Below, one piece after another: positions 8,958 to 49,080 of a stretch of DNA of 64,000 bases (the first letter of the stretch is position 1; every line of letters begins with the position of its first letter). The stretch is from a virus, in the IMG/VR virus record IMGVR_UViG_3300017917_001524, positions 182,543 to 246,542 of that record. One strand, written 5' to 3'. The position numbers and the translations under genes are program-made. The notes under the pieces are model-generated. The model saw only the letters and a list, made by a program, of their open reading frames with translations, had not been told where the DNA came from and ran no database searches.

Positions 8958-9875
8958 ATGTCAAGAATCGAAACACTAAAAAAACAAAATCCATTACTGG
9001 ATGTATCAATTATTGATATCATCGCCAGTTTAGATCCAACAACCACTTATAAGTATACACCTTTTATGGTGAATATACTTAAAGGTGAACTATCGAATAG
9101 TCCCGATATTAAAAGAAAACTAGGTGAAACACTTTTTTCTGATGAAGCAATTTCACTTATTGAGAGATTCGAAAAACACTGTTCCGCACAACGAATTAAA
9201 CAAAATGACATTACTAAGTATAAATCTTTTACCGAAATACAAAAAGCAGTAAAAGAAGGTGATGAGATTTTAAAACAAAAAGAATCCGAGAAACAAATAA
9301 TTAAGCTTTATGATAAAGATGGTTATCTTGTTTTAATACCTTTAACATTTGAAGCATCTAAAATTTATGGTGCTAACACCAAATGGTGTATCACACAAGA
9401 AACATATTGGAAAAATTATCAGTGGAATTATCGTATCATTTATATTATCGATAAGAACAAAAATAAAAAATGGGCGATCTCAAGAAAGTATTCTGATAAC
9501 ACAGATGTTAAAGGATGGGATAGTGCAGATAAAGAAATAAGTCCAATGATTATGGATTTACCTGATGATGTATTGTTTATTGCATTAAAAAACATTAGAA
9601 AACCTAAATTTGAGGTTGAATTAAATGTTTTGGGTACAAATAAAAATTCAATATTTACCTCAGATGGTAGAATCGTATCGATAAACGATGCGTCTAAACA
9701 AGATGTGAACTGGTTTAATAACACGTTTAAACAACATTTAAATGAGATTTTAAAAAAACCTTCGGCTGATAATCAAAGTTTTGACCAATTAATTGAGGCC
9801 GCAAAAAAAATGAGTAGTGACGATATTATTAGAGAAAAATTGGACAATATTTTTAACACCTTTGATTTTAAATAA
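8958..9875 (+). CDS. Hypothetical phage protein with WCIT motif (305 aa)
   Basis: The central segment LIPLTFEASKIYGANTKWCI followed by T is a hallmark of a widespread, uncharacterised phage protein family (xxAxxYGxxTKWCxT). After it come IIYIIDKNKNKKWAIS and a C-terminal helical tail. Function unknown. Confidence 0.7.
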   Translation: MSRIETLKKQNPLLDVSIIDIIASLDPTTTYKYTPFMVNILKGELSNSPDIKRKLGETLFSDEAISLIERFEKHCSAQRIKQNDITKYKSFTEIQKAVKEGDEILKQKESEKQIIKLYDKDGYLVLIPLTFEASKIYGANTKWCITQETYWKNYQWNYRIIYIIDKNKNKKWAISRKYSDNTDVKGWDSADKEISPMIMDLPDDVLFIALKNIRKPKFEVELNVLGTNKNSIFTSDGRIVSINDASKQDVNWFNNTFKQHLNEILKKPSADNQSFDQLIEAAKKMSSDDIIREKLDNIFNTFDFK

Positions 9876-29853: not shown

Positions 29854-30414
29854 GTGAAAAAACAACTCACAATAAAAGACGTTAGACCCCAACTACCATT
29901 CAATATCAACTACGGAATGGCTGACCTATCAATTAAACATATCCTTGACCCTAATTGGGGTATTATTATAGATTGGGATGTTTATCTTCCAACAAAAGGA
30001 ATGAACTTACAAAGACCTTTTGTGTGGACACTACAACAAAAACAAGAACTTATCTATAGTGTCTTTAAAGGAATACAACTTCCACCCATATCCATCATAC
30101 AATATCGTGACAAAGATGGAAACATAACATATAAAATTATTGACGGTAAACAACGCTTATCCACACTCATAGCTTTCGTCAAAAACGAATTCCCTATCAT
30201 CTGGGATAACCAAGAATACTTCTTCGATGAACTTGACCATTCCATTAAAGGTGAGTTCTTATATCATGGACTCATACGCTCTAACATAGGATATGAATAC
30301 CCAGATAAACTCATTTCTGATGACGATAAAATAATGTGGTTCCAGATGATTAACTTCGCCGGAACACCACAAGATAAAGAACACCAAGAAAAACTTCTTA
30401 AAAATCTGAAATAA
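29854..30414 (+). CDS. DUF262 (GmrSD/ParB-like N-terminal) protein, single domain (186 aa)
   Basis: GTG start. Residues 45-115 carry the DUF262 core: MNLQRPFVWTLQQKQELIYS, VFKGIQLPPISIIQY and KIIDGKQRLSTLIAFVKNEF (the DGQQR-type active loop). Full GmrSD or SspE proteins are 500-700 residues and add an HNH (DUF1524) domain, absent here. So this is a stand-alone NTPase-type module. It could act as an antagonist of related host defence proteins, or independently. Base composition is richer in C than neighbours. Confidence 0.85.
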   Translation: MKKQLTIKDVRPQLPFNINYGMADLSIKHILDPNWGIIIDWDVYLPTKGMNLQRPFVWTLQQKQELIYSVFKGIQLPPISIIQYRDKDGNITYKIIDGKQRLSTLIAFVKNEFPIIWDNQEYFFDELDHSIKGEFLYHGLIRSNIGYEYPDKLISDDDKIMWFQMINFAGTPQDKEHQEKLLKNLK

Positions 30415-30415
30415 A

Positions 30416-30447
30416 TTTGGTGGTTTAAAATAACCTTCGTACATTTG
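30416..30447 (+). promoter_or_regulatory. Phage-type promoter of the giant RNA
   Basis: TTTGGTGGTTTAAAATA starting at 30416, then TACATTTG at 30440-30447 (20-base gap from TTTG). It is immediately downstream of the DUF262 stop and nearly identical to the promoter at 29777. Predicted start of transcription is near 30454. Confidence 0.8.
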
Positions 30448-30453
30448 TTTCAG

Positions 30454-31372
30454 AAAACAAAAAACAGTTCTTTGAGATAAAATATTAGGTTTGATATTTA
30501 CCTTTGTGGATTATTAGAGGCCCAAGGTTAAACCCTATGGTAAGCGGTAATAATTTACATAAAAAGTTGTAGTAATAGTTTTAAGGAGCTTGCTATTTAT
30601 AGTCAAAGTGAACTTATGTGAAAAATCTATTACTACAAATTGTGTTGTTTTTCCTTGAGAAAGAGAAATGTGTAATGAACTATGGAATAGGTACTTCCAC
30701 AACACAAATATCATTCTCATTATCTAATTGTTTTGTAATGTCTAATGAAGTTGTCAAAGTTGGGTTGAAGCAGAATTACTAATAAAAAGCGTGAGTAAGT
30801 AATGACAAATGGAACTTACAAATGTAGTAATTAGATTTACAAAACATTAGATAAATATTCTATACCAAAAGCATATAGTGTAGCGGATTAAGTTTCCAAG
30901 CACGTTGGTAGAAGGTATAAAGTCATTGTGAAAATACTACGAAAACCACACCGAAGTACAAGGGATAGGAAAAGTTAAACAAATGAAATAGTATATAACC
31001 TAAGTAACAATGATGGTGGCAGCATATCTAAAATAATTAACAGTTTGAGCCAGAGATATTAAGTTATCGAGACACTGGCTTGGTATGCCTCAACAGTCGT
31101 AAGATTGTTGTAGTAGTTGTTAATTAACCAACTGATACATTATCACAAGGGTGGCCGTATGCCATGAGAATGTTCCTCGAAAGAGTGCAAGAAGGTTTGT
31201 TTAACAACATTGTGCTGGTTAGTTATGGTGACTAGCTAATATAAAATCAATTAACCGCATAACCATATACAATGGGTGGTTCCGAAGTGTCTAAGTTAGA
31301 GGTACACTAACACAAATCACATTGACAACAGTTATCGGAGTGGAATTGGAAACCCACAATTGATTTTATTAT
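30454..31372 (+). ncRNA. Giant structured RNA, GOLLD/ROOL-like candidate (~920 nt)
   Basis: No coding frame spans this stretch. It contains many long helices: 30567-30578 with 30627-30638 (12 bp perfect), 30639-30648 with 30699-30708 (10 bp), 30720-30738 with 30837-30854 (18 bp, one bulge), 30774-30781 with 30825-30832, 30795-30800 with 30814-30819, 30861-30866 with 30915-30920, 30923-30929 with 31006-31012, 31034-31042 with 31118-31126, 31241-31252 with 31358-31369 (12 bp). Crossing pairs such as TTGTCA/TGACAA suggest pseudoknots, and CTC-GAAA-GAG near 31177 is a GNRA hairpin. Size, promoter, boxA and adjacent tRNA-like genes match the GOLLD and ROOL giant RNAs of phages. I cannot assign the exact class. 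Confidence 0.75.
30467..30475 (+). promoter_or_regulatory. boxA-like antitermination signal GTTCTTTGA
   Basis: GTTCTTTGA lies about 13 bases into the predicted transcript. Bacteroidota rRNA leaders carry the same kind of element (GTTCTTTGA plus AT-rich sequence), where it recruits Nus factors. The same string followed by CATATT precedes the CRISPR array at 48464. Confidence 0.55.
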
Positions 31373-31481
31373 AGTCAGGTGGCGAAATGGTAGACGCATG
31401 GGGCTGGTGAACCTCAAGTTTGAAAACACTAAACAATGAATCGTGTGAGGAACTGTACAAGTTCGAATCTTGTCCTGACTA
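31373..31481 (+). tRNA. tRNA-like gene 1, oversized central region
   Basis: Acceptor AGTCAGG (31373-31379) pairs with CCTGACT (31474-31480). D arm GCG..CGC carries the GG of a normal D loop (ATGGTAG). T arm is ACAAG-TTCGAAT-CTTGT. No encoded CCA. Between D and T arms lie 59 bases: TGGGG and CCTCA can pair around an 8-base loop CTGGTGAA, leaving a 40-base variable region with an ACAC/GTGT hairpin. Looks Leu/Ser-class, but the anticodon is not clear. It begins 3 bases after the last long helix of the giant RNA. Confidence 0.6.
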
Positions 31482-31715: not shown

Positions 31716-31855
31716 AGTCAGGTGGCGGAATGGTAAACGTGCTGGTCGGTACCCGAAAGAGTGTAGAATGGGGGAAACTGGTGGACATACTACAGACACG
31801 AGTAGTAGGAGAATATATCTTTAAATCCTTGCAGGTTCGAGTCCTGTCCTGACTG
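31716..31855 (+). tRNA. tRNA-like gene 2, very large central insertion
   Basis: Acceptor AGTCAGG (31716-31722) pairs with CCTGACT (31848-31854), identical to tRNA-like gene 1. D arm GCG..CGT with ATGGTAA loop. T arm GCAGG-TTCGAGT-CCTGT. The 5' and 3' halves look like a Leu tRNA, but about 85 bases separate the D and T arms, including a 6-bp TACTAC/GTAGTA hairpin. An anticodon stem is not obvious. An intron, an RNA domain inserted in a tRNA, or a tRNA mimic are possible. Confidence 0.5.
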
Positions 31856-43521: not shown

Positions 43522-45798
43522 ATGGATATACTAGCAAAAAGTGATGGGACAACATTAATTGATCACTCAAATAATGTGTCACAAGTATCAATTATGATTT
43601 ATCGTGAATTAACGAAAAACATATCATTACAACAAAATCATTTATTGGTATTAGAGATCGCAGGTAAATTACACGATATCGGTAAGTGCACAAAAAATTT
43701 TCAAAATAAACTAAAAAAAAATCATCCAGAAGAAGATATTTTTGACGTGATATCTAGAATCCCTTATCGACATAATGAAGTTGGTTGGGCGTTTTTAAGC
43801 AAATATCTACAATTACCAAATGAAATTCTAACATTGGTGTTGGACTTGGTTTATTGGCATCATGGTATATCAAATAAACTTGGTGGTTATAATAATTTTG
43901 AATTATTAAGTAAAATCCCTAATACCGATATTGAAATAATGGTTGAATACCTAAAATCAGTTATTGATGAAGAATATATCAACCCCACACCAGAACTCGC
44001 AAACACAAGAAACGCACCCACATATTATTCAAATGACCCTGACACCTCCTCAGATAAAAATATGTATCTACTTACATTGAGGGCATCATTGAATTCCGCT
44101 GATAGACTTTGTTCAATGACAGGAAATAAACAATTATCTATTGATGATGTCAAATCAATGATCTTTAATGATGATTTTGACACAAATCTAATTGACATTA
44201 CAAAACATGAATATTTTGGTAATGAACGATTCCAATTACAACAATCAATATCAAATATAACAAAAGAAACAACAATAATAAAAGCACCCGCCGGTTTCGG
44301 TAAAACTTTACTGGGATTGTTATGGATGATATCACAAAAAAAGAAAATTCTATGGGTCTGTCCTAGAAATGTTGTCGCAATATCTGTCTTTAAAACTATC
44401 ACCCAAGAACTTAAAGCATTTGGTGCAAATAATGTTAGTGTTGAAGTATACGTAACCGGTGAAGTGTCCATGTCAACACATAACTCAAATGGGTTTGAAT
44501 CCGATATTATTATCACCAATATTGATAATTTTTTGGCTCCTAGCGTCGATAATAGACACGGAAATAGAATATGCGATATATTAAACTTCCCCGTTGTATT
44601 CGATGAATGGCATGAATTCGTCTCCGATACCGCAATGTTTTCCTGTTTTATTAATATTATGCGTGTTAGACATCGTTTAACAGGGTCCAAAACAATACTA
44701 TTGTCAGCAACACCAATACCAATTAATGGATTCTGGGATACAATTAAATCACAAACACTAATCTTACCAAATAAAGATTCCCACTATCCAGCACCACATA
44801 AAATCCCTTATAAATTAAATATTGTTGACGATTTATCCGCACCTGACAATTCATCAACATTGATCATTTATAACTCAATTCAAAATGTTCAATTAAATAA
44901 AACAAATTCATCTAATATCATTCACAGCGGATACGTCGACTCAGATAGAAACATAAAATTAAATGAAATATATCAACTCTATGGTAAACAATCAAAACGC
45001 ACCAATAACAAACCAAATCTATATAGCGGACCATTAATTAGAGCCAGCTTAGATATCTCATTTCAACATTTATATGAATCAATCGTATCCCCACAATATA
45101 CCCTACAAGCAATCGGACGTTGTAATCGATTTGGTGACTATAATGACCAATGCACGATAAACCTATCCAATCAGTTTGATTTAGGTGAAAATAACCTAAA
45201 AGATATATTATATTCAAGAAACTTTACAGGTACTTGGTTCGATTTCATTAAACAATATCATGGACATGATGTCACACTAGATGAACTTTATGTACTATAC
45301 AATAAATTCGAAAACACAAACCAAAATACCCTAATTGGTTATTATAAATCAAAACACCATAACAGTCTAACCAACTTGTCTAAAATCCACCCAATCAAAT
45401 ATTATAACAAAAAAGTTAAATCCGATGTCAAAACAATTGGATCAAATAAACTTCGCATCCTAAATGATGGTTTGTTCGTTATCGCAAAAAATAATAACCA
45501 AAAAACATATTGTGACCCATTCTCAGTTGAAATTTATGGGGGAATTTCCGAACAATTCAAAGAACGCGATTATGATGTAAACATCGGTAAAATAATTAGC
45601 GTCATGAAAGAACTTAGAAACACTAACGACACAAGATTCGATTATAATAACATTATCGACGATTCCTACCATACAATGGACGACATAAGAAAAGCAGCAA
45701 AAAAATCAAACACACCATATATCCGATTCGATGCCGTTTATGACCAAACATATGGACTAATAAAACATACCACCCTTTATAAAATTTTTCCCAAATAA
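43522..45798 (+). CDS. cas3: CRISPR-associated Cas3 (HD nuclease + helicase)
   Basis: N-terminal HD nuclease: LIDHSNN (about 12-18), GKLHDIGK (about 48-55), RHNEVGW, LVYWHHG and LNSADR. The SF2 helicase follows: Walker A KAPAGFGKTLLGLLW (about 254-268), motif II FDEWHEF (DExH form with Trp), motif III LLSATPIP, motif VI QAIGRCNRFGD, and a C-terminal region of about 190 residues. Length 758 is normal for Cas3. HD precedes helicase, and no Cas2 is fused, unlike type I-F Cas2-3. It would unwind and degrade DNA recruited by the Cascade encoded downstream. Confidence 0.95.
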   Translation: MDILAKSDGTTLIDHSNNVSQVSIMIYRELTKNISLQQNHLLVLEIAGKLHDIGKCTKNFQNKLKKNHPEEDIFDVISRIPYRHNEVGWAFLSKYLQLPNEILTLVLDLVYWHHGISNKLGGYNNFELLSKIPNTDIEIMVEYLKSVIDEEYINPTPELANTRNAPTYYSNDPDTSSDKNMYLLTLRASLNSADRLCSMTGNKQLSIDDVKSMIFNDDFDTNLIDITKHEYFGNERFQLQQSISNITKETTIIKAPAGFGKTLLGLLWMISQKKKILWVCPRNVVAISVFKTITQELKAFGANNVSVEVYVTGEVSMSTHNSNGFESDIIITNIDNFLAPSVDNRHGNRICDILNFPVVFDEWHEFVSDTAMFSCFINIMRVRHRLTGSKTILLSATPIPINGFWDTIKSQTLILPNKDSHYPAPHKIPYKLNIVDDLSAPDNSSTLIIYNSIQNVQLNKTNSSNIIHSGYVDSDRNIKLNEIYQLYGKQSKRTNNKPNLYSGPLIRASLDISFQHLYESIVSPQYTLQAIGRCNRFGDYNDQCTINLSNQFDLGENNLKDILYSRNFTGTWFDFIKQYHGHDVTLDELYVLYNKFENTNQNTLIGYYKSKHHNSLTNLSKIHPIKYYNKKVKSDVKTIGSNKLRILNDGLFVIAKNNNQKTYCDPFSVEIYGGISEQFKERDYDVNIGKIISVMKELRNTNDTRFDYNNIIDDSYHTMDDIRKAAKKSNTPYIRFDAVYDQTYGLIKHTTLYKIFPK

Positions 45799-45822
45799 AA
45801 CAAATAATTAAATTGTTTCACC

Positions 45823-45830
45823 TATATTTG
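45823..45830 (+). promoter_or_regulatory. -7 box TATATTTG before the Cascade genes
   Basis: TATATTTG lies 19 bases before the cas7-like ATG in the 51-base gap after cas3. The expected TTTG box is not well formed. It may allow separate expression of the Cascade genes and the array. Confidence 0.45.
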
Positions 45831-45849
45831 TATCACAAAATATTAACAC

Positions 45850-46923
45850 ATGAATAAAATAAAAAATGTCCTATTCAGGGCAAAACTAAAAGGTCGAGGA
45901 ATCGTTAATTTCGATAGTTCCGATCAAAAATTCGTTTATAATGGTTCAGACATGCACCATATGAAAACACTACATGATAACACCTCTTACGCAAAAAAGA
46001 AGTTTTATCGTGATGAAAACAACAATTTGAAATACAAAATTTCCATTTCATCTGATTGTTTAAGACATGATATCTTTAAAGATGAAATTCCCTTCCAATC
46101 ACCAAACATCATTAACGGTGATCACATTTTATATTCATTTATCGCCAGCCCAGCATCCCTAATTCGTGGATATCTATTTGCAGATACCTCTGAAACCCTT
46201 AAACGTGGTGGTGCGTTAACAATTACAGACGCAATTCAAACTTGTAACGCAGTCTCCACCATTGAAACATTCACCAAAAGCGGTAAAAAATTAACCGATT
46301 CCGATAAAACTGATAACACGTTCTTCCGTAAAGAAACCATCGGTGATGTTGAATATCAAACACAAGGAAATATCGATTTGATGACATTACAATTCGTCTC
46401 CTGTGATAAAGTTTTTGATCGATACGCGTTTAACCCAGATATGTTCAATATCTACAAACAATTCATGTCATTGAAATTCCCAACGTTTGATAGTGAATTA
46501 GGTTATTATCAAATTAAATCATCAGACATTGACATCCCTGAACATGGACTAATGTTATCCAATGAAAATGTTGTTCTTTTGGTAAAAGAAACATTAAAGA
46601 AACTCTTTGGTTTAAACATCACACGTAAAGGTTCATTCGCTAACGTTACCGAACTTCAATATAAACTCGTTCAAGACCCACTAACTGATACCTTTCACAA
46701 TGATGAAGGTTGGGTTACAATATCTTCAGTCAATGATATCAATACAATCAACTTCGAAGTCGAACAGTTTTATACACTAATCGATAAAAATGTTGCAACC
46801 GAAAAACGTCGCATGATTGAAGAAGATTACGAAAATCGTAAAAATAAAGACGCCGAAACAAAAGCCAAAAAGAAATCTGACGCAAAAAAAGCCAAAGACA
46901 AAAAAAATGAGGATTCTGAATAA
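45850..46923 (+). CDS. cas7: Cas7-like Cascade backbone protein (357 aa)
   Basis: Placement after cas3 and the pattern GRGIVNF near the N terminus, FIASPASLIRGYLFADTSET followed by LKRGGALTITDA, and QGNIDLMTLQFVSCDKVFDR are those of a Cas7/Csy3-like RAMP that binds the crRNA. The SLIRGYxF..LKR..LTI string recalls the Cas7 of the minimal I-F2 (I-Fv) systems, but I am not certain of the subtype. The last 50 residues are an extreme Lys/Glu-rich tail (KKKSDAKKAKDKKNEDSE), unusual for Cas7. Confidence 0.75.
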   Translation: MNKIKNVLFRAKLKGRGIVNFDSSDQKFVYNGSDMHHMKTLHDNTSYAKKKFYRDENNNLKYKISISSDCLRHDIFKDEIPFQSPNIINGDHILYSFIASPASLIRGYLFADTSETLKRGGALTITDAIQTCNAVSTIETFTKSGKKLTDSDKTDNTFFRKETIGDVEYQTQGNIDLMTLQFVSCDKVFDRYAFNPDMFNIYKQFMSLKFPTFDSELGYYQIKSSDIDIPEHGLMLSNENVVLLVKETLKKLFGLNITRKGSFANVTELQYKLVQDPLTDTFHNDEGWVTISSVNDINTINFEVEQFYTLIDKNVATEKRRMIEEDYENRKNKDAETKAKKKSDAKKAKDKKNEDSE

Positions 46924-47743
46924 ATATCTACACCTTGAATTTAGGGATGCTAAATTGTATCCACTAAAAGATGGTCGAGGCCGATTAACCAAGGATAAGA
47001 TATTTGATATCAATGGTAGACGTGATAGGGAATACGAATTCGTTGAACCTATCACGGTTCACCAAATCTCAAATATGCTACATGTTTTATTTGGTCAACG
47101 TCCTAAACCCACTCACCGAGAAACGGTATACCAAAGGTCTGAATATCTCTTCCAAAAAGCCATGGATTCATATCTAAAACTTAATACCGTCTTAGATAAT
47201 AAAGGTAACCTAATAAGAGAATCAACACAAACCAAAAAAGCAGTACATAATGCTTGGTCAACAACCGCATTCATAACATGGTCTCGTGTTAAAGACTACG
47301 CTGGTGACTATTTCCCACAAATCCAAGCTGAGTTGATTCGTGCTTTTGGTCAAGATATTTTATCCAAACCTTTTGCTGATCTTGTTCCAATGATTAAAAC
47401 TTCCACCGATACACAACTTATTAACTTCTTCGAGGGTTTAAAAGATATAAAACTGACAGCATTGCACACATACATATTTGATGAGCGTGGTAGAACACAC
47501 ATAAATGCGTCATCAAAAACAAGACTTACTGTTTTGTCAGGTTTGGATTCAATTGTTAAGTTTAGTGGTAACATTATTGTACCAGTAAACGATGATGACA
47601 TTGAAATCATCAGGTCAAACAAAGGGTGTGCAACCATATTAGATGGTGGTTTGGTAATGATTAAAACTTTAACACCCGATTATAACACCACCATCGATGG
47701 TTATATTAAAGTATCTGACATTTCACTTGAAATTAAACAATAA
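46907..47743 (+). CDS. cas5: Cas5-like Cascade protein with helical insertion (278 aa)
   Basis: The true start is the ATG at 46907, overlapping cas7 by 17 bases; a longer frame simply reads the cas7 tail. Residues 1-35 (NKYLHLEFRDAKLYPLKDGR) and 215-278 (TVLSGLDSIVKFSGNIIVPV; TTIDGYIKVSDISLE) are beta-rich as in Cas5. The stretch between (about 45-200) is largely helical (SEYLFQKAMDSYLKLNTVLD). In I-Fv systems such a helical insert in Cas5 replaces the missing large subunit; the same may hold here. Assignment rests on position and layout. Confidence 0.65.
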   Translation: MRILNKYLHLEFRDAKLYPLKDGRGRLTKDKIFDINGRRDREYEFVEPITVHQISNMLHVLFGQRPKPTHRETVYQRSEYLFQKAMDSYLKLNTVLDNKGNLIRESTQTKKAVHNAWSTTAFITWSRVKDYAGDYFPQIQAELIRAFGQDILSKPFADLVPMIKTSTDTQLINFFEGLKDIKLTALHTYIFDERGRTHINASSKTRLTVLSGLDSIVKFSGNIIVPVNDDDIEIIRSNKGCATILDGGLVMIKTLTPDYNTTIDGYIKVSDISLEIKQ

Positions 47744-47747
47744 ACAA

Positions 47748-48446
47748 ATGAGAATAAGAATAAATTTTTCACCTAGTAAAACACCACTTCCAATGCATAA
47801 TCAATCATTGGTTAACTCCTATATACATAAATGCTTGGGTCACAATAACCCTTATCATAACGCAAAAAATGACTATTGCATATCATCATTACGTGGAGGT
47901 AAAATGAATAACGATAATACCCTCGATTTTCCAAATGGTGGTTTCCTAACCGTAACCAGCAATAATGGTGTGTTTTTAAACACATTGTTGATTGGGTTAA
48001 TCAACAACAAAGAGTTTATCCATGGTATGGAATTCAGTGGTGTGACACACATCAACGAAAAGTTTTATGATGGGTGGAACCATTTTGCTACATTATCACC
48101 ATTTTTGGTTAAAGAGTATTGTGATAAAAAGCGTTATACTTATTTAACGTTGAAAGATAAGGATTTTTCATCCAAATTAAAATCATATCTAATTAAGAAA
48201 ATCACGGCAATTTCACCTGATTTGGACTTAACAGATTTTGATGTAAATATACCTGACAACCCAACCCATAAAGTAAAAACAATTCTCGTCAAAAATGTCG
48301 CAAATAAAGCCAACCAATGCCAAATAAACATACATTGCAATAAAAAAGTCGCCCAACTCCTATACACCATTGGAATCGGACAATCAACAGGCTGCGGGTT
48401 CGGTACTATCTATAAAACCGAAAACCATAAACTTTATACCACATAG
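47748..48446 (+). CDS. cas6: Cas6 crRNA-processing endoribonuclease (232 aa)
   Basis: Starts MRIRINFSPSKTPLPMHNQS (typical first strand of Cas6). HNNPYHNAKNDYCISSLRGG holds the His-rich region expected for catalysis, and the C-terminal glycine-rich loop GIGQSTGCGFGTIY (about 211-224) is the Cas6 family hallmark (GxGxxxxxGFG). This is the I-A/I-B/III type of Cas6, not the shorter Cas6f. It would cut the 36-base repeats of the adjacent array. Confidence 0.9.
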   Translation: MRIRINFSPSKTPLPMHNQSLVNSYIHKCLGHNNPYHNAKNDYCISSLRGGKMNNDNTLDFPNGGFLTVTSNNGVFLNTLLIGLINNKEFIHGMEFSGVTHINEKFYDGWNHFATLSPFLVKEYCDKKRYTYLTLKDKDFSSKLKSYLIKKITAISPDLDLTDFDVNIPDNPTHKVKTILVKNVANKANQCQINIHCNKKVAQLLYTIGIGQSTGCGFGTIYKTENHKLYTT

Positions 48447-48543: not shown

Positions 48544-48553
48544 ATCAATAAGG

Positions 48554-49049
48554 GTTGTTACTTATATTAATTCGCAAGGAAATCACAACAATTCAATTTA
48601 TTCCACCCACCAATTTGAGTTGTTACTTATATTAATTCGCAAGGAAATCACAACATTAGTATCAACATTTGTTGGTTAGGTGGTGTTGTTACTTATATTA
48701 ATTCGCAAGGAAATCACAACCAATTGTGCAACATCCAAGCAATTCATATTGTTGTTACTTATATTAATTCGCAAGGAAATCACAACATTATCACTTGGTA
48801 ATGATAGGATTCAAGTGTTGTTACTTATATTAATTCGCAAGGAAATCACAACGGACAACTGAGTGTTCCCGTAAGGCTCGCAGTTCTTACTTATATCAAT
48901 TCGAAAGGAAATCACAACATACAGGTATACAAAAACAACAATTAATAGTTGTCACTTATATCAATTCGAAAGGAAATCACAACGAGGCTATACTACTCCT
49001 TTTGGCACTACTAATTGTTACTTATATTAAATCTATATGGGAAACTAAT
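48554..49049 (+). CRISPR. CRISPR array, 8 repeats and 7 spacers
   Basis: 36-base repeat beginning GTTGTTACTTATATTA and ending GGAAATCACAAC. Repeats start at 48554, 48619, 48685, 48751, 48817, 48883, 48948 and 49014; spacers are 29-30 bases. Repeats 1-5 are identical. Repeats 6 and 7 share ATATCAATTCGAAAGG and each has an extra change near the 5' end (GTTC, GTTGTC). Repeat 8 is degenerate after its first 17 bases. The leader end is therefore on the left, next to cas6. Most spacers are AT-rich; spacer 5 (48853-48882) is clearly richer in GC. Confidence 0.97.
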
Positions 49050-49080
49050 TCTAATATAAATTAATCACCCCATCTTTCAA

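Follow-up and report, generated by a model that had tools for sequence, protein, structure and literature searches.

Within a 64,000-nt stretch of a phage record of 310,542 bases (IMG/VR record IMGVR_UViG_3300017917_001524, positions 182,543 to 246,542; hereafter the window, whose coordinates are used below) lies about a kilobase without coding frames, which raises the question of what this DNA encodes. The original prediction placed a giant ornate non-coding RNA at 30416-31372, beside tRNA-like genes, and suggested that it might be a new member of its kind. The analysis described here supports that proposal, and we put the probability that this is a real, structured and trans-acting class of RNA, new in the sense of not being in Rfam 15, at roughly 85%.

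An ORF-free gap with homologues in other viral records

The absence of coding frames was borne out, as 30415-31419 contains no plus-strand ORF of at least 60 aa. At 1005 nt this is the longest such gap in the plus-strand block, where the next-longest is 480 nt, and it carries 20-31 stops in each of its three frames. The folding energy of the predicted interval is low relative to shuffled sequences (z = -2.8), equally so on both strands. Given that this signal is not strand-specific, energy alone is no evidence for an RNA, and the evidence is instead supplied by homologues.

The first homologue, detected by blastn among phage records, was a match of 39 nt (E 1e-5) to Leptolyngbya phage Lbo-JY46, where it falls in a non-coding gap; this named isolate carries the RNA in its short form. 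Further members were found by searching viral contigs with spaced DNA patterns derived from the shared motifs, and were checked by eye and by profile. Homologues are present in 14 other divergent viral records, giving 15 distinct records with the window (L002, L003, L031, L060, L061, L066, L067, L068, L069, L070, L072, L074, L075 and L088 being the others), where L060 and L064 hold the same RNA and are counted as one. Over the aligned 3' core, pairs of members are 43-69% identical (median 55%). A covariance model of the H3-H4 core described below (R1), built without L002 and L061, recovered both held-out members, one at 67.1 bits (E 1.5e-13) and the other at 55.7 bits (E 7.6e-11). By this model the seven viral records searched and Lbo-JY46 hold one copy each.

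Several candidates were set aside as chance matches. These include two weak R1 matches (17.2 bits in Flavobacterium phage immuto, 14.6 bits in Microcystis phage Mel-JY01), the sole match in 84,980 bacterial genomes, which falls in a coding region within a Bordetella prophage (L073, a twin of L071), a single exact 16-mer in apparently coding DNA of L059, and most matches of one 18-mer and of one gapped pattern.

Other features of these genomes were recorded in passing. Directly 5' of the RNA, 29854-30414 (plus strand) encodes a 186-aa protein with a GmrSD N-terminal domain (PF03235), short for its family. L060 and L064 are near-identical phages set apart by an indel of ~110 nt immediately downstream of the RNA (after 1222 and 11187, respectively). 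Elsewhere in the window is a compact phage-borne type I CRISPR-Cas locus (43522-48446, plus strand) encoding Cas3 (with Cas3fv as its best PADLOC match), a protein resembling Cas7fv/Cas7f, a 308-aa protein without assignment and Cas6. An array of 7-8 repeats, spaced 65-66 nt apart, comes next (48546-49050); no Cas8, Cas1 or Cas2 was seen among the scanned neighbours of this locus.

Structure and extent of the RNA

All 15 records share a 3' domain of ~250-350 nt that contains six covarying helices, H1-H6, and the invariant strands GTGGCAGCATA, TATGCCT, TAGTAGTT and ACATTGTGC. In the window its features are as follows.

30864-30868 with 30905-30909, plus strand: H1, ACCAA with TTGGT, covarying as ACTAA/TTAGT, ACCTA/TAGGT and TTCCA/TGGAA
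30923-30929 with 31007-31013, plus strand: H2, TCATTGT with ACAATGA, 100 of 105 cells paired, 21 pair types
30934-30939 with 30989-30994, plus strand: inner helix of H2, ATACTA with TAGTAT
31016-31026, plus strand: GTGGCAGCATA strand, invariant in all 15 members
31022-31028 with 31082-31088, plus strand: H3, GCATATC with GGTATGC, its loop highly variable in length and sequence
31091-31110, plus strand: H4, CAACAGTC-GTAA-GATTGTTG with a conserved GNRA loop, then invariant TAGTAGTT
31116-31122 with 31202-31208, plus strand: H5, GTTGTTA with TAACAAC, then invariant ACATTGTGC
31218-31236, plus strand: H6, 3' terminal hairpin, GTTAGT/ACTAGC, with TGG or TGA in the loop

We tested H3, H4 and H5 on an alignment (A1) with the structure set by hand. 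Across these helices 96.7% of 329 cells are paired and 12 pairs show changes on both sides; none of 500 shuffles reached any of five measures, and sliding the partner strand by 1-3 columns reduced pairing to 27-56%. H4 is 98.3% paired, with both-side changes in six of its eight pairs, and its stem occurs as CAACAGTC/GATTGTTG, CAACAATA/TATTGTTG, CAAACATA/TATGTTTG, TAGATATA/TATGTCTG, CAATAGTA/TACTATTG and CACAATTA/TAATTGTG. The GNRA hairpin that had been predicted is this one: GTAA at 31099-31102 lies between CAACAGTC and GATTGTTG, and the loop is of GNRA type in all 15 members (GTAA, or GTGA in L075). H5 is 94.3% paired, with both-side changes in four pairs. Unguided RNAalifold returned the same helices together with H6, amounting to 35 pairs, of which 20 have both-side changes. 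The corresponding figures for H1, H2 and H6 (97%, 95% and 93% of cells paired, respectively, against less than 50% when slid) are biased, for H1 upwards, because the strands were picked by eye. Absence of covariation in homologues had been named as grounds for abandoning the original prediction; covariation is present and strong.

A 5' domain of ~400-600 nt is optional, being found in six of the 15 records (the window, L003, L031, L060, L068 and L075). These full-length members measure 706-900 nt from a conserved 5' block to the terminal hairpin. In most of the others the 3' domain is preceded by 5' sequence that is short or unrelated, and L061 retains D6 only. The helices of this domain in the window are listed here.

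30567-30577 with 30628-30638, plus strand: D2, TTGTAGTAATA with TATTACTACAA, a single clear compensatory change, T-A to C-G (L075)
30640-30647 with 30700-30707, plus strand: D3, TTGTGTTG with CAACACAA, enclosing hairpin D4
30648-30668, plus strand: D4 hairpin, its stem varying as TTTTTC/GAGAAA, TTTAAC/GTTAAA and TTTAC/GTAAA
30723-30738 with 30837-30851, plus strand: D6, TCTAATTGTTTTGTAA with TTACAAAACATTAGA, sequence-invariant

There is almost no sequence variation in the long helices D2, D3 and D6. As a result D3 and D6 offer no covariation to score, and their pairing is read from the sequence alone. The expectation of many long helices was right in substance, in that eleven can be listed and seven of these have both-side changes across homologues. 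Two further pairings were considered and are not part of the model. A terminal helix closing the 5' and 3' ends is unsupported (5.8 bp, against 5.3 bp with swapped partners), and AGGTT (30487-30491) with AACCT (30997-31001) is invariant, hence without covariation, and is located upstream of the probable start. The compact 3' domain of L069 spans ~270 nt, and L072 carries at ~9000-9260, at the start of the 3' domain, an ATACC...GGTAGAGAAG.ATAAAG module in apparently two tandem copies.

Comparison of the homologues also refines the extent of the RNA.

30499-30506, plus strand: TACCTTTG, probable Bacteroidota-type -7 promoter box, inside block AGGTTTGATATTTACCTTTGTG
30512-31240, plus strand: structured RNA as conserved (~730 nt), ends inferred; full-length homologues in L003, L031, L060, L068 and L075
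31241-31369, plus strand: window-specific 3' extension (~130 nt), closed by a perfect 12-bp helix, ATAAAATCAATT/AATTGATTTTAT

The 5' edge is marked by block AGGTTTGATATTTACCTTTGTG, whose sequence hardly varies among the six full-length members. TACCTTTG conforms to TAnnTTTG, the -7 promoter consensus of Bacteroidota, and this motif is enriched on the coding strand between genes of the window (21 occurrences against 7-8 in controls, and 14 against 3-5). If the box is a promoter, the RNA would start near 30512, with its conserved part ending near 31240. Thus the predicted large RNA stands while its limits of 30416-31372 do not, the conserved RNA including neither the first ~95 nt nor the last ~130 nt of that interval, and what had been called a phage promoter is better read as a box of host type. 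The terminase of the L031 phage also hints at a Bacteroidota host, being 58.7% identical to that of Flavobacterium phage immuto. The carriers are probably large lytic-type phages infecting Bacteroidota. The element at 31241-31369, which separates the conserved RNA from the first tRNA-like gene, was not seen in any homologue.

tRNA genes and tRNA mimics beside the RNA

The tRNA-like genes expected at the 3' end are real, both being recognised by the Rfam tRNA model RF00005.

31373-31481, plus strand: tRNA-like gene 1, 44.6 bits, with a Leu-type D arm, a T arm, an odd anticodon region and a long insert
31716-31855, plus strand: tRNA-like gene 2, 34.2 bits, with the same acceptor and T arm as gene 1

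In gene 2, ~90 nt of unconserved sequence replaces the anticodon arm, and neither gene is an ordinary decoding tRNA. Across the family, tRNA, tRNA-like or tmRNA genes lie within ~400 nt of the RNA in five of 15 records (the window, L003, L061, L074 and L075), and the other neighbours of the RNA differ among records.

This setting suggests the main alternative to a trans-acting product, namely that the region is a cis-acting leader or processing region of a tRNA and tRNA-like transcript. Such genes do lie ~10-140 nt downstream in the window, L003, L061 and L074. The idea is weakened by members without nearby tRNA genes, none having been found near the RNA in L002, L066, L067, L069, L070 or L088, and in L075 the tRNA-like genes are upstream. 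An elaborate 700-nt fold present once per genome also far exceeds what a leader needs, and we regard this explanation as improbable. That several 3'-domain records lack a nearby tRNA, and that the other neighbours differ, instead indicates a product that acts in trans.

Group I introns favour sites near tRNA genes, and a large, ornate RNA with a GNRA hairpin in such a place could be a ribozyme, either the remnant of a self-splicing intron or a self-cleaving RNA. At E ≤10 the region matches none of the group I, group II or ribozyme families of Rfam, it has no internal ORF, no interrupted host gene was recognised and the flanks differ between phages; a ribozyme is accordingly a still less probable account than a leader.

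The two tRNA-like genes belong to a widespread class of phage tRNA mimics that have a normal acceptor stem, a Leu-type D arm and a normal T arm, and ~20-130 nt of hypervariable sequence where an anticodon arm would otherwise be. The acceptor stem is often AGTCAGG/CCTGACT, and other covarying stems also occur.

Window: 31373-31481 and 31716-31855, tRNA mimics
L031: 5278-5395 and 10602-10715, tRNA mimics
L060: 2564-2685, 3111-3208 and from 3322, tRNA mimics
L068: tRNA mimic
L072: 10546-10686, tRNA mimic
L074: 2737-2812, tRNA mimic
L075: 10063-10151, tRNA mimic
L074: 3382-3775, 3292-3376 and 2736-2812, minus strand, array of tmRNA, tRNA-Leu and mimic (L099 also listed)

In the L074 phage the tmRNA (tag ADLYPSQKASAKVIKLTPVAEQELELAA), the tRNA-Leu, the RNA of the new family and the tRNA mimic stand in a row. 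An exact T-arm/acceptor pattern occurs in at least 120 stretches of viral contigs, with lengths mostly of 70-190 nt among the matches listed, and ARAGORN misses nearly all of these mimics. We found no description of them in the literature searched; they are possibly decoys of tRNA-binding enzymes. They are not a strict companion of the RNA, which is carried by none of the 25 other mimic-bearing records. A small WW...EIE.IW protein motif was likewise rejected as a shared neighbour, being encoded 0.2-1 kb downstream of the RNA at three of 15 loci, against five of 222 other loci.

Window: ~32156, plus strand, WW...EIE.IW motif
L031: ~6035, minus strand, WW...EIE.IW motif
L002: ~4892, plus strand, WW...EIE.IW motif

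Relation to known giant RNAs and a possible function

Large ornate phage RNAs are long, free of ORFs, rich in covarying helices and often near tRNA genes, and the RNA described here shares each of these traits, being adjacent to such genes in the five records named above; a further hallmark of the kind is abundant expression during infection or lysis. We compared the gap with all 4227 families of Rfam release 15 using cmscan at E ≤10. Only the two tRNA-like genes were returned, with no GOLLD, ROOL, OLE or other large RNA, so that membership of GOLLD, ROOL or OLE, the kin first considered, is excluded as far as Rfam models reach.

The new RNA and GOLLD are alike as giant phage RNAs (many GOLLD exceed 800 nt) near tRNA genes, and also, in style only, in joining a conserved 3' domain to a variable 5' domain (six full-length and nine other records here); GOLLD is described as having a conserved 3' domain and a more variable 5' domain (PMC12286853). 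They differ in that no sequence or covariance-model match links them, and the new RNA has other landmark motifs, none in common with the GOLLD consensus, and another helix order. The GOLLD model (RF02032, gathering score 150 bits) does identify a true GOLLD in the same phage at 315.7 bits (G000:C1:290088-290486, minus strand, equivalent to L057 1501-1899, minus strand), which is the sole GOLLD of the genome and far from the RNA locus. A T-arm-like GGGTTCGAATCCC lies near the 3' end of this GOLLD. The L074 record has a GOLLD-like match at 76.7 bits (E 6.6e-22), below the family cut-off.

ROOL is likewise a phage or prophage RNA, of ~500-700 nt, with several helices and near tRNA genes. Its model (RF03087, gathering score 99.1 bits) gave no match in the four family genomes searched, this phage and three related ones, whereas the positive control, L. 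salivarius pMP118, scored 130.4 bits. The 5' and 3' parts of ROOL are described as intertwined (PMC12286853), unlike the new RNA, whose 3' domain occurs without the 5' domain in many phages. Conversely, R1 matched neither the GOLLD of this phage, nor the GOLLD-like locus of L074, nor the L. salivarius ROOL. A divergent GOLLD or ROOL unseen by the Rfam models would fit the size class, the phage and tRNA setting and the domain style; given the separate GOLLD in the same genome and the reciprocal failure of the models, this explanation is already largely refuted, and we consider it very unlikely.

OLE, which we take to be RF01071, resembles the new RNA as a large ornate non-coding RNA, yet it does not match at E ≤10 and is not a phage RNA. 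The lncRNAs of phage K lie near tRNA genes of a large phage and have been compared with GOLLD and ROOL on the basis of location and abundance (PMC9241854). They share length and setting with the new RNA, but blastn against a phage collection that included Staphylococcus phages gave only 26-nt chance-level matches, a comparison of sequence alone. No earlier description of the RNA was found in the literature searched, which lacked most subscription journals. Lastly, a chance structure in an AT-rich non-coding spacer, a reading that fits the equal folding energy of the two strands, is already refuted by the compensatory changes in divergent homologues.

Together, a fold that covaries, unpaired strands of invariant sequence, an accessory domain that is optional and the absence of any constant gene neighbour support a folded RNA that acts in trans, probably a new class of large ornate phage RNA serving as a scaffold. 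These data allow us to propose how it might work. The ~730-nt RNA would be transcribed from a host-type promoter next to tRNA and tRNA-like genes, and the folded RNA itself would be the product. Its invariant unpaired strands and GNRA hairpin may make tertiary or inter-molecular contacts, with the hypervariable loops predicted to point outward. By analogy, several copies could conceivably come together as a particle, of RNA only or of RNA and protein, that serves late in infection, although we hold this step only tentatively. The size, tRNA-gene setting and domain style shared with GOLLD and ROOL make homo-oligomeric assembly our leading guess, albeit a speculative one.

GOLLD and ROOL form RNA-only cages of 14 and 8 chains, respectively, of unknown function, and that work left it open whether large natural RNAs commonly form cages (PMC12286853). 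Giant ornate RNAs of bacteria or phages fall into few known classes, and two of the phage classes are such cages without a known purpose. The compact 3' domain of ~270 nt in L069 is small enough to probe and solve. An unrelated class that shares one genome, and possibly a second, with GOLLD offers an independent test of cage formation, and by the same analogy it may, though we lean against assuming so, be a further self-assembling giant phage RNA that works side by side with an unrelated GOLLD in one phage.
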